Shown: positions 13,909-46,596 of the stretch, in pieces | Position numbering within the stretch: the first letter of the stretch is position 1 | Layout of the letters: every line of letters starts with the position of its first letter | Source of the DNA: Erysipelothrix amsterdamensis | Lineage (GTDB): Bacteria; Bacillota_I; Bacilli_A; Erysipelotrichales; Erysipelotrichaceae | Reading direction: 5' to 3' | DNA: 64,000 nucleotides | Assembly (NCBI RefSeq): GCF_940143175.1 | Contig: NZ_OW659496.1 | Location: 1-64,000, forward strand | Notes under the pieces: generated by a model | The model's database searches: none | Told to the model about the DNA's origin: nothing | The model's input: only the letters and a program-made list of their open reading frames with translations | Position numbers and translations under genes: made by a program

Positions 13909-14688
13909 TATTGATTTTTGAATTTGGTTCATAACTGCATTGTCATTATTTGATTCGATAACTTCAGTGGCAACACGCTTCACATCCGCATGCGCGTTAG
14001 CGACTGCATAAGAGCTTCCTGCCAGTTCTAACATTTGAATATCATTGTGATAGTCACCGAATGTTATAATGTCCGCAGCGTCGATATTAAGCGCTTCTAA
14101 CAAATGCTTGATTCCAACGCCTTTATTAACGTTTGAATGCATCACATCAATCCATACTGCACCAGCTGTGACTGCATTGAAATGGCCATCTAGAGACTCT
14201 CTAACAATCTCGTTATAATTGGAAACCGTGTGATGTAGACTGCAAGCAGTTATCTTAACGAAATCTTTATCTAGAGCTGAAAGGTCCTCGACAATAACGA
14301 AACCAGGATAATACTCCTCAAGATACTGTTCGTGTATCGGATCACCAAGCTCAACGTAGGCACAGTCAATACCCGATGCAATAATCGAAGTTTCTGTACA
14401 TGTTCTAAAAACAGTTGTTACTGTCTCCACATCTATTTTAGAGAATACAGACTTATAAAGTATTTCGCCATTATGCTCGACAATGGCCCCATTATCAGAT
14501 ACAAACGATAAATCATTAATGAAATTATTGGCCTTTTTCTTGATGCTAAAAAGAGTACGCCCACTAGCTAAGACCATATGGATGTTATTGTCCTTAAGCG
14601 TTTTTAGTACTTCTTCAAAATTGTAGGGAAGATTTGAATCATCATCTAAAAGCGTGTGATCCATATCAGTAGCTATTAATTTAATCAT
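13885..14688 (-). CDS. HAD-superfamily phosphatase, Cof type
   Basis: A cytoplasmic sugar-phosphate or nucleotide phosphatase of the Cof/YwpJ group, 267 aa. Seen: motif I ATDMDHTLLDDD with the nucleophile Asp, motif II LASGRTLFS, a large type-IIb cap, the conserved KGVGIKHLLEAL, and motif IV FGDYHNDIQML. The natural substrate cannot be told from sequence. GAGGTTAC lies just before the ATG. It converges on serS and shares its terminator. Confidence 0.88.
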   Translation of the reverse strand: MIKLIATDMDHTLLDDDSNLPYNFEEVLKTLKDNNIHMVLASGRTLFSIKKKANNFINDLSFVSDNGAIVEHNGEILYKSVFSKIDVETVTTVFRTCTETSIIASGIDCAYVELGDPIHEQYLEEYYPGFVIVEDLSALDKDFVKITACSLHHTVSNYNEIVRESLDGHFNAVTAGAVWIDVMHSNVNKGVGIKHLLEALNIDAADIITFGDYHNDIQMLELAGSSYAVANAHADVKRVATEVIESNNDNAVMNQIQKSIKKIEPID

Positions 14689-14717
14689 AAGTAACCTCCA
14701 TCAAAATTATACCATAA

Positions 14718-14733
14718 TGTTTCACGTGGAACA
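14718..14733. other. parS: Second parS-type partition site
   Basis: TGTTTCACGTGGAACA matches the ParB consensus TGTTNCACGTGNAACA at every fixed position; the two arms differ at one base pair. It is intergenic, between the HAD phosphatase start and the SRP RNA promoter, about 2.2 kb from the first site. Confidence 0.85.
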
Positions 14734-14755
14734 TTTAAAATAGTCGTTTAAGAGG

Positions 14756-14783
14756 TTGCATTTTAAGACAGTTTTGATATAAT
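14756..14783 (+). promoter_or_regulatory. Promoter of the SRP RNA gene
   Basis: TTGCAT (14756-14761), 16 bases, then TATAAT (14778-14783) preceded by TGA, an extended -10. Confidence 0.7.
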
Positions 14784-14789
14784 AACTAT

Positions 14790-14870
14790 GCTACAACAAC
14801 ATAATCTAGTTAACCAGGTCAGGGCAGGAATGCAGCAGCCTTACATTAGCTCTTATGTGTGTTGTGGCTC
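14790..14870 (+). ncRNA. ffs: Signal recognition particle RNA (small bacterial type)
   Basis: The 4.5S-type RNA pairs with Ffh for membrane targeting. The conserved apical region reads CCAGGTCAGG, then GGAATGCAGCAGCC (about 14814-14840). The ends GCTACAACAACATA (14790-14803) and TATGTGTGTTGTGGC (14854-14868) pair as a long stem, and a T-run follows. The neighbourhood (tadA, then dnaX-recR) is the usual one in Firmicutes. Confidence 0.9.
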
Positions 14871-14914
14871 TTTTTGTATATAAGGGGGCGTTATCGATCG
14901 AACATCACAAATAT

Positions 14915-15799
14915 ATGGATGATGCATACCAAGAGGCACTTCTTGCATATAGTCTAGAAGAAGTACCGGTAGGCGCTGTTGTTGTCTATAACAATCAAAT
15001 CGTAGGACGAGGACATAATGTTCGGGAAACGCAACATCAACCCTCAGGACATGCGGAAATCATTGCGATGGATCAAGCAGGGAAAACGCTTGGATCATGG
15101 AACTTGGAAGGGTGTACCTTGTATGTGACACTCGAACCGTGCGCGATGTGTACGGGTGCGATTATGCAATCAAGAGTGAGTACCGTTGTATACGGCTCAA
15201 AAGAACCCAAAAGTGGTTGCTTAGGATCGGTTATTGATTTTACTCAAATAGAGGGTTACAACCACTATCCGAAAGTAATTGCAGGTATTGAAGAAGAAAA
15301 AACAAAGCGGTTAATGCAGGACTTTTTCAAACAACAACGCAATAAACAAATAAAAATTAAAAAAGCAGATAAAACTACTTTTGAAAGTTATCTAAAAGTT
15401 CGTAAAGAAGTATTCGTTGATGAACAAAACATTGATCCAAAAGAAGAGTACGACGATCTGGATACATTGGAAAATAGTCAAGTTGTCCATATTGTTGCAA
15501 TTAAACAAGAACAAGTGATAGGCACTATGAGGCTATTAACAACTAATGGAACCATGAAAATCGGAAGATTGGCTGTGTCAAAACCTTTTAGGAATATGAA
15601 AGTTGCTTCCAAGATGGTTCGTTATGCAATTATACAAGCTGAGAACAATGGAATTCATGTTATTGAGCTCAATGCACAACTAAGTGCAATAAACATTTAT
15701 AAACGACAAGGTTTTGAAGAAACTGGGGAAATATTCAAGGAAGCGGGTATTTCCCATATAAAAATGATTAAACAAATAAAAACATCGAATCACATTTGA
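14915..15799 (+). CDS. tadA: tRNA adenosine deaminase TadA fused to a GNAT acetyltransferase domain
   Basis: The N-terminal part is TadA, which makes inosine at the tRNA-Arg wobble position: zinc and proton-shuttle motif SGHAEIIAMD, zinc cysteines in LEPCAMCTGA, and the family's VPVGAVVV. After about QDFFKQQRNKQ comes a second domain, KVRKEVFVDEQNI ... GTMRLL ... KIGRLAVSKPFRNMKVASKMV ... INIYKRQGFEETG, a GNAT acetyltransferase. The ATG at 14915 is the first standard start outside the SRP RNA but has no ribosome site. AAGGGGG (14882-14888) is instead well placed for a non-standard ATC at 14897. The frame is open back to an ATG at 14855, inside the SRP RNA stem. Confidence 0.88.
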   Translation: MDDAYQEALLAYSLEEVPVGAVVVYNNQIVGRGHNVRETQHQPSGHAEIIAMDQAGKTLGSWNLEGCTLYVTLEPCAMCTGAIMQSRVSTVVYGSKEPKSGCLGSVIDFTQIEGYNHYPKVIAGIEEEKTKRLMQDFFKQQRNKQIKIKKADKTTFESYLKVRKEVFVDEQNIDPKEEYDDLDTLENSQVVHIVAIKQEQVIGTMRLLTTNGTMKIGRLAVSKPFRNMKVASKMVRYAIIQAENNGIHVIELNAQLSAINIYKRQGFEETGEIFKEAGISHIKMIKQIKTSNHI

Positions 15800-15810
15800 T
15801 TCGATGTTTT
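15778..15810. terminator. Bidirectional terminator between tadA fusion and sortase
   Basis: AAAACATCGAATCA (15778-15791), loop CATT, TGATTCGATGTTTT (15796-15809). A perfect 14-bp stem serving convergent genes. Confidence 0.92.
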
Positions 15811-15824
15811 TATTTTCTCTTTGG

Positions 15825-16448
15825 TTAACGTGTTGGTTCCGAACTTTCAAGTTCTGCTTTAATGATTGTACGGTTAACGCTGTAATCATTCGCTTCGGTA
15901 CATGTTACAAGTGTAAGTGTAGCGCCGCGAGATTCATCGTCATTAAGTACTGAAGTATCAGTATAAGGAACTTCAAAGTTATCGTAAACCTTATAAATAT
16001 AAGTAGTGTTATCTTCTTTACGGTGCAATTTAATCGTGTCGCCTTTTTCTATCTTCTCGAAATCACGGAAGACACAGCTTGCGCAACGACCATTATGTCC
16101 TGCTATCGAGAAGTTTCCTTCTCCTGGAGGGTCTATTGACCGATTCCAGGCAACAACATAACGGTTGAGATAACCCCAGTCGTCAGATTTAACAATCAAA
16201 TGGTTGATATCAAGTTTCTCAATCTCAATAGATCCCCACTTGTCTGTTTCTTGTTTTGAAGGACCATCAGAATCATCTTGAGGTAGGGGAGCATTAAGAA
16301 AATCTTGTAATTCTCGTTTGAGCGCTTCACGTTCAAGATAAGAAGAACCGACATCATAAATGATTATTCCCAATCCTGCGAGGATCATCATAATTCCTAA
16401 AAAACCAAACAAATTAAATTTTTTCTTTTTCTTAGTATTGTTTTCCAT
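15825..16448 (-). CDS. Sortase
   Basis: A membrane-anchored cysteine transpeptidase that joins sorted surface proteins to the wall. Seen: a Lys-rich start, one membrane segment (FGFLGIMMILAGLGIIIYD, about residues 17-35), catalytic His in SIAGHNGR, Cys in TLVTCTE and Arg in SVNRTIIKAEL, the full triad. Length is 207 aa. The start at 16448 is chosen for AAGGTGG upstream; a longer in-frame start at 16469 lacks one. No substrate gene with a sorting motif lies beside it, so it may be a housekeeping sortase. Its exact class is not assigned. Confidence 0.9.
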   Translation of the reverse strand: MENNTKKKKKFNLFGFLGIMMILAGLGIIIYDVGSSYLEREALKRELQDFLNAPLPQDDSDGPSKQETDKWGSIEIEKLDINHLIVKSDDWGYLNRYVVAWNRSIDPPGEGNFSIAGHNGRCASCVFRDFEKIEKGDTIKLHRKEDNTTYIYKVYDNFEVPYTDTSVLNDDESRGATLTLVTCTEANDYSVNRTIIKAELESSEPTR

Positions 16449-18946: not shown

Positions 18947-19825
18947 ATGAGCTCAATAGCGTATATTTCCGATGAAAAGATGGTTGAATATCATCGAATT
19001 AATGGAAATCAAACTGTGAATTTTTGGAGATTAAGTCTTAAAGGATTCGAGCGGTTTGATGTTGGTGACTTACTTTTTTTCTTAGACAAACGTTATATCC
19101 ATCCTCAAACGAAAGAAAAAGGGATTATTGGTTATGGACGCGCAAAAAACATCCGTACGATGAGCGTTAGACGAACAAGGGATCAATACGGAACCATGAA
19201 CGGATATACCGCTTATGATATGTTTGAAGATGCTATTTTAAACAGGACCAAAGATAATAAATTACCGAAACAAATACAAAGTATTGAACTCGAAGATATT
19301 AAGTTCTTCGCGGCTCCCATCTATTTACATGAAGTAGACTTTAAACTTACGAAGCGTCTCGAATCGTTTACCTATCTTGAAGATGAGGAACACAGTATTG
19401 TGTTAAATTTACTGAACAAAGGACTGGAAATAGGCATTGATGAGTGGTTTACTAAAGTTCATAAACACGCATTAAGTGTGAAAAACATCAAAGAAGATAT
19501 CGATCACCAACGGTTAAGAGATGTAATCGCAAGTATACGCGCGGAATGGACTCAGATACAAGAAACTATGATTCCTTCTAATGAAGAAATATACAAAATA
19601 GGCTCTATTGGATATACATATAACGGAAACAAAGAAGCATCCATTCTATTGCCTTGTTCTTCACTTAAAAACCAGATATATCCGTTGTTGGGTATTTCCT
19701 GGGTAATAAAAAAAGAACTCGATGATTTCAAGTTCTCTATTTCAATATGTATTAAGAATCAAAGTGTTTCACAACCCTACGAAGATCTTATTCAGCGGAT
19801 GAATTTAGGGCTCGTAGATATTTAG
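18947..19825 (+). CDS. Unrecognised protein in the dnaX-recR operon
   Basis: A soluble-looking protein of 292 aa that I do not recognise. The first 75 residues include FDVGDLLFFLDKRY and GIIGYGRAKNI, a pattern reminiscent of PUA/EVE-type small domains that sense modified bases, but this is only a resemblance. The middle is acidic and helical; the C-terminal 90 residues show no clear motif. TAGGAGG precedes the ATG, 9 bases after recR, so it is cotranscribed with dnaX-recR. Its last 38 bases overlap the convergent CYTH gene. A nucleic-acid role is an inference from neighbours only. Confidence 0.75.
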   Translation: MSSIAYISDEKMVEYHRINGNQTVNFWRLSLKGFERFDVGDLLFFLDKRYIHPQTKEKGIIGYGRAKNIRTMSVRRTRDQYGTMNGYTAYDMFEDAILNRTKDNKLPKQIQSIELEDIKFFAAPIYLHEVDFKLTKRLESFTYLEDEEHSIVLNLLNKGLEIGIDEWFTKVHKHALSVKNIKEDIDHQRLRDVIASIRAEWTQIQETMIPSNEEIYKIGSIGYTYNGNKEASILLPCSSLKNQIYPLLGISWVIKKELDDFKFSISICIKNQSVSQPYEDLIQRMNLGLVDI

Positions 19826-45744: not shown

Positions 45745-46596
45745 TTAGGATGAAGTTAACCGATAATTTACGGGAGATTGATATCCTAGCTTTTCTTGTA
45801 TTCGATTTTCATTGTAATATTTTAAATAGTTTATCACAGTTTGTGATACAATTTCAGTAGAACCCTTTAGGTCTGGGTTTAATTCGAATGTTTCACACTT
45901 TAGCGAGGCATGAAACGATTCGATAGGAGCATTATCAGCGGGTGTACCCTTACGGGACATACTCATGGTAATGCTTTTATTTTTTACTTTGAGTTGATAC
46001 TCTTTTGATGTATAGACACTCCCTTGATCAGAATGAAGAATACATGGCTGAACGATATCCGGAAGTTGATTTAATGTATCAACCACACATTCTAGGTTTT
46101 GTCTGTCACTCAATGTAGACGCAATAATCTCACCATTATATAAATCCATGATCGTAGATAAATAGAGCATCTTATGGCCATAAGGGATGTAAGTGATATC
46201 TGTCACCAATTTCTCTAGAGGACGTAGTGATTTAAAGTCGCGATTAATGATATTGGGCATAATGATCTTCGGATTTTTGTTTTTTCGATACCGTTTGACC
46301 TTAACACGGCATTGACATTGGTGTTTCTGCATTATCTTTTGAACAGTATTCTTATTGATAATTCTTTCTTTTCGAATTAATGCAGTTATTTTTCGATATC
46401 CATAACGAAATTTATTTTCTTTACAAAGTTCAATTACTAATGCTTCATTGACAGAATAATTATTAGACTCAAGTTGCTCTTTTTTAGTCCAACGGTAATA
46501 CGTTGACTTAGGTACCCCAAAAAGATTCAAGATATCTTTAATTGATACAGTGTTGCGATACTCTTCAACGAGCTTGATGATTATTTCAGGAACCAC
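45745..46596 (-). CDS. IS3-family transposase OrfB (integrase core)
   Basis: 283 aa with an HTH_21 region (VIELCKENKFRYGYRKITAL) and the DDE triad in LVTDITYIPYG, LHSDQGSVYTS and NAPIESFHASLKCE. It lies in the -1 frame of orfA and overlaps it by 16 bases. The functional enzyme is probably OrfAB, produced by slippage at the heptamer 46617-46623. Confidence 0.93.
   Translation of the reverse strand: MVPEIIIKLVEEYRNTVSIKDILNLFGVPKSTYYRWTKKEQLESNNYSVNEALVIELCKENKFRYGYRKITALIRKERIINKNTVQKIMQKHQCQCRVKVKRYRKNKNPKIIMPNIINRDFKSLRPLEKLVTDITYIPYGHKMLYLSTIMDLYNGEIIASTLSDRQNLECVVDTLNQLPDIVQPCILHSDQGSVYTSKEYQLKVKNKSITMSMSRKGTPADNAPIESFHASLKCETFELNPDLKGSTEIVSQTVINYLKYYNENRIQEKLGYQSPVNYRLTSS

Follow-up and report, generated by a model that had tools for sequence, protein, structure and literature searches.

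The tadA-GNAT locus and its proposed start codon

The 64,000-nucleotide stretch analysed here (the window) is the first part of the 1.91 Mb single-contig genome of Erysipelothrix amsterdamensis and contains a gene in which the tRNA wobble deaminase TadA is joined to a GNAT acetyltransferase (tadA-GNAT). The locus reads gyrA, a T-box leader, serS, a HAD hydrolase gene on the opposite strand, scr, tadA-GNAT, a sortase gene on the opposite strand, dnaX and recR. The scr gene for the bacterial small SRP RNA (14787..14874, + strand; Rfam RF00169, 64 bits) lies immediately 5' of tadA-GNAT, an arrangement common to all intact loci of the genus that were read. The stop codon of the fused gene (15797..15799, +) is overlapped by a terminator-like hairpin of 19 pairs with a T-rich tail (15774..15815, +), which is a consensus match only, with 0.7 expected in shuffled sequences, and which probably represents the end of an scr-tadA-GNAT unit. 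A promoter scan from 14650 to 15900 yielded nothing above the thresholds; a TATAAT hexamer 5' of scr is conserved in the aligned genus loci, and we infer that tadA is transcribed via readthrough of scr. Elsewhere in the window, we recorded a hit of the Rfam model for rli23, an antisense RNA of Listeria (45842-45941; 49 bits, barely above the gathering score), and a 292-aa open reading frame 3' of recR (18947-19825) which matched no Pfam family.

The initial annotation had placed the start of the gene at 14855, but this position lies inside scr, and homology places the start at an ATC codon instead (14897..14899, +), resulting in a protein of 300 aa versus 314 from 14855. The aligned start position reads ATC in the window's genome and two relatives (G000, G002 and G007), ATA in G005 and ATG in the other eight intact relatives, and the residues from this position are IEHHKYM here versus MEHQKFM in the relatives with ATG. 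A Shine-Dalgarno-like AAGGGGG (14882..14888, +) is located 8 nt 5' of the proposed AUC and is kept in G002, G007 and G005, sitting 7-8 nt before the ATC or ATA in all four genomes, and the next ATG is codon 7, about 26 nt from this site. Because an in-frame stop is present right at the Shine-Dalgarno site of G007, an upstream start is impossible there. The ATG at 14855 was rejected as a start because it lies within the SRP RNA, is not preceded by a Shine-Dalgarno site and has its frame blocked by the stop in G007.

The AUC/AUA start class is otherwise typical of infC. The infC genes of the genus show an apparent ATT or ATC start after a strong Shine-Dalgarno site (L083, at about 610 kb of contig C1 in the window's genome, as well as L077-L082 and L085), which makes an AUC or AUA start of tadA plausible. 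From the aligned loci, tadA-GNAT appears to begin at AUC (AUA in G005), and such a non-AUG start could put TadA under the control of initiation factor 3. In S. aureus, AUU and AUA starts yield about 10-30% of AUG expression (PMC13009471). If true, tadA of these four species would join the few natural bacterial genes whose start is not AUG, GUG or UUG.

The two domains and their junction

As proposed in the initial annotation, the TadA frame runs without a stop into a complete GNAT, with matches to PF14437, NF008113 and then PF13673/PF00583 in one single open frame. The TadA domain comprises residues 1-150 (14897..15346, +), as delimited by PF14437, NF008113, Foldseek and AlphaFold2, and carries a C-terminal helix at its end (residues 133-150). 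The Pfam profile search matched PF14437 with an E-value of 4e-42, and the NCBIfam TadA equivalog NF008113 was hit with 151.1 bits, barely over its cut-off of 150. The zinc and catalytic motifs HAE (H52, A53, E54) and PCAMC (P81, C82, M84, C85) are invariant in 12 sequences of the genus, and K145 and R148 at the end of the contact helix are conserved in the same alignment. Foldseek superimposed the TadA half on B. subtilis TadA with an rmsd of 1.2 and on the S. aureus TadA-RNA complex with an rmsd of 0.8. The genome of the window contains only one full TadA, two tRNA-Arg(ACG) genes and one tRNA-Arg(CCG) gene, and none of the 49 tRNAs found in it is a further A34 tRNA. This tRNA set is the usual setting for TadA. 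Given its fold, motifs and genomic setting, this half of the protein is an ordinary TadA and probably active as the A34 deaminase of tRNA-Arg(ACG).

The GNAT domain is of the YjcF/SACOL1063/ElaA type and covers residues 153-293 (15353..15775, +), as indicated by PF13673/PF00583, which both scored above cut-off in the Pfam search, by homology and by Foldseek. It matched SACOL1063 with an E-value of 1e-17 and YjcF with 1e-14, and Foldseek retrieved the structures of SACOL1063 (5jph; TMt 0.89-0.90) and YjcF (1q2y). The RxxVFVxEQ motif, Y268 and H287 are invariant in the 12 genus sequences. The acetyl-CoA loop R/Q-x-x-G-x-G/A is more variable: it reads RNMKVA in the window and RKQGIG in G009, and across the alignment the first glycine is frequently substituted, while the last position is G or A. 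Since this pyrophosphate loop is degenerate in the clade of the window (RNMKVA for RxxGxG/A), the GNAT might bind acetyl-CoA poorly there. Net charges of the domain lie between -4 and +6 in the genus, which neither indicates a conserved tRNA-binding surface nor supports a basic, tRNA-binding GNAT. The closest characterised relatives of the domain use free amino acids as substrates. By analogy to them, the GNAT half is probably an active enzyme of the YjcF/SACOL1063 type, and its likeliest substrate would be a free amino acid or another small amine, a proposal that depends on about 31% identity to SACOL1063.

The two domains are separated by only two residues (15347..15352, +), because the last helix of TadA ends at residue 150 and strand 1 of the GNAT begins at residue 153, as seen in the 12-sequence alignment and the AlphaFold2 model. 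The junction is free of indels in 12 species, and the only one nearby affects one residue of the loop that follows strand 1 of the GNAT. Because the sequence near the junction contains no in-frame ATG, GTG or TTG, a separate GNAT product is not obvious. An AlphaFold2 model built from the 12 genus sequences (mean pLDDT 92, pTM 0.69) placed the helix at 133-150, directly followed by a strand at 153-156; each domain is modelled with confidence, whereas their mutual orientation is less certain. Binding of the anticodon stem-loop in the complex of S. aureus TadA depends on the C-terminal helix (PMC8216470). With the GNAT starting two residues past the corresponding helix, it should sit beside the anticodon arm of the bound tRNA. 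In evolved adenine base editors, mutations occur in the final turns of this TadA helix, in agreement with this picture. A viral structure search returned single-domain matches only.

Distribution of the fusion and a second TadA-GNAT gene

The initial annotation had made no statement on how common the fusion is and had considered that it might stem from a sequencing error. We searched for the same domain order and found the fusion in 13/13 genomes of the genus, 12 of them intact and one, a fragmented metagenome-assembled genome, frameshifted within the TadA half; a sequencing error is ruled out because the join is conserved genus-wide, including the 12 intact genomes. The fused proteins diverge down to 43% identity across the genus. 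For the genus pairs with estimable synonymous change, dN/dS ratios were 0.03-0.11 for TadA and 0.05-0.20 for the GNAT, values which are rough because several dS values exceed 1; judged by these ratios, both domains are under purifying selection.

Beyond the genus, the fusion is absent in the other 48 relatives of the family and order. Among the best approximately 150 matches listed for the 395 genomes of the class, there was no full-length match of this type outside the genus, although fusions of TadA to other domains could escape this table. A search of named genomes gave two distant TadA-only matches and nothing else, and we found no published TadA-GNAT fusion in the open-access literature. 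The distribution survey covered one phylum. The initial annotation had also considered that relatives might have two separate genes. Adjacent, separate tadA and GNAT genes of the same type were not present in any of about 40 outgroup tadA loci; in a sister genus a freestanding GNAT of this type lies approximately 6 kb from tadA. In one outgroup locus (L031, 735-1935, G029), serS is separated from the SRP RNA-tadA pair by a GNAT gene of a different type, and another locus (L030) shows a weak GNAT match approximately 850 bases upstream.

Open-frame lengths revealed a second TadA-GNAT fusion in genus g150, which belongs to another family (f21) of the same class, where it is present in 6/8 species, with separate genes in the other two. 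Because the GNAT families differ between the two genera, each fusion arose independently. In a phylum sample of 392 genomes, full-length matches to the g150-type fusion were confined to g150 itself. In G210 of the g150-type lineage (L111, 1498-2457), the aligned tadA start is ATA rather than ATG, and an in-frame ATG occurs a few codons 5', within tdk.

GNATs of the second type (Acetyltransf_3) stand alone in sister genera, and others are joined to CutC (L141), a Nudix hydrolase (L139, L140, L148) or an M20 peptidase (L143). G021 has a first-type GNAT joined to a methyltransferase (L040). All of these partners are named by sequence reading. The 1.9 Mb genome of the window additionally contains 24 Acetyltransf_1 matches. 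Therefore, a chance GNAT fusion is not rare here, and because GNATs of both types are joined to unrelated enzymes, fusion alone is weak evidence for a common pathway. GNATs are promiscuous fusion partners in the class, and the tadA-GNAT fusion is real, conserved and rare, joining two known enzyme families.

Possible functions and comparison with known systems

We consider it an even bet that the gene encodes a bifunctional protein, in which normal deamination of tRNA-Arg(ACG) is combined with a small-molecule acetyltransferase beside the anticodon arm, at low expression and with no reaction in common. The N-terminal half, presumably as a dimer, would deaminate A34 of tRNA-Arg(ACG), and the C-terminal half would acetylate a free amino acid or another small amine, as its relatives suggest. 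The fusion would go back to a single event at the base of the genus or earlier, with nearly no linker left, and would place the GNAT at the tip of the anticodon-gripping helix, whose role is known from published structures. It may have been retained mainly for a fixed-ratio, low-level synthesis of both enzymes, the low level resulting from readthrough of transcription that starts at the SRP RNA promoter, with the weak AUC or AUA start as a further cause in four species. The fusion may simply serve to make the two enzymes together, but the near-invariant junction and the lack of any reversal across the genus suggest more than convenience.

A neutral event, in which tadA became linked, by deletion or rearrangement, with one of roughly two dozen genes for GNATs and the link was never undone, leaving the start codon as the only thing in common, is unlikely. 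Such an origin would fit the abundance of Acetyltransf_1 matches (24 in 1.9 Mb) and the joining of GNATs to CutC, Nudix, M20 and methyltransferase partners in related genomes, and the freestanding GNAT close to tadA in the sister genus suggests that the partner could be local. However, drift should produce splits or linker growth, whereas 13/13 species keep the join down to 43% identity with almost no indels at the junction. That the acetyltransferase carried by TadA at the anticodon arm lets acetyl-CoA or acetylation set wobble editing, or modifies the same tRNA, with the initiation factor 3-dependent AUC/AUA start throttling synthesis, appears quite unlikely to us.

A GNAT that senses acetyl-CoA and controls TadA, either by self-acetylating lysines near the active site or allosterically, such that editing tracks metabolism, is distinctly improbable. 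The short junction of conserved length, the conserved K145 and R148 and the degenerate CoA loop in one clade, which could mean sensing rather than catalysis, are in line with it, but freestanding TadAs also have the helix with K145 and R148, so their conservation needs no GNAT, and the domain retains the invariant residues of its family including Y268, as expected of an active enzyme. The initial annotation had suggested acetylation of the tRNA or of a protein bound to it, and retention of the fusion throughout the genus is an argument in its favour. A GNAT on the anticodon-gripping helix could then act on the bound tRNA or a partner, e.g., on an anticodon-arm base or on the aminoacyl moiety of Arg-tRNA. 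While strand 1 begins only two residues behind the TadA helix in contact with the anticodon stem-loop, the junction length is fixed in 12 species and the same domain order evolved in a second lineage, we regard this as highly doubtful: basic character is not conserved at net charges of -4 to +6, the closest relatives act on free amino acids, GNATs are promiscuous in their fusion partners, and the best Pfam/NCBIfam match is to no known tRNA-modifying GNAT family.

Should tRNA or TadA be the target of the GNAT, the protein would directly link acetyl-CoA metabolism to decoding; otherwise, it would neatly illustrate how a housekeeping RNA enzyme can become fixed to one unrelated to it. The fused protein also shows TadA, from which adenine base editors are derived, with an extension that occurs naturally at its C-terminus.

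Compared to known bacterial TadAs (B. subtilis YaaJ, 7cph; S. aureus TadA-RNA, 2b3j), the fused TadA half likewise has the full domain with zinc and catalytic motifs, matches their fold with an rmsd of 0.8-1.2 over about 146 residues, and shares with known genes the linkage to SRP RNA and dnaX-recR. Known TadAs stop after the C-terminal helix, whereas in the fused protein the GNAT comes straight after it. The GNAT aligns over the whole domain with YjcF (B. subtilis, 1q2y) and SACOL1063 (S. aureus, 5jph and 5jq4) at 31-32% identity and has the RxxVFVxEQ and DAGIxH-type motifs in common with them; these are freestanding proteins, and their CoA loop retains the glycines lost in the clade of the window. 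ElaA (E. coli, 5z6n) belongs to the same wider GNAT group but is less similar; it shares the GR at the strand preceding the CoA loop. Apart from the fused gene, the genome of the window has an ElaA-like gene (G000:C1:1614045-1614425). The second tRNA-Arg(ACG) gene adjoins a freestanding ElaA-like GNAT gene in four members of the genus (L158, L155, L156, L157). The TadA-Acetyltransf_3 fusion of g150 (L109-L114) has the same domain order as the one described here and also nearly no linker, but its GNAT belongs to another family (PF13302).
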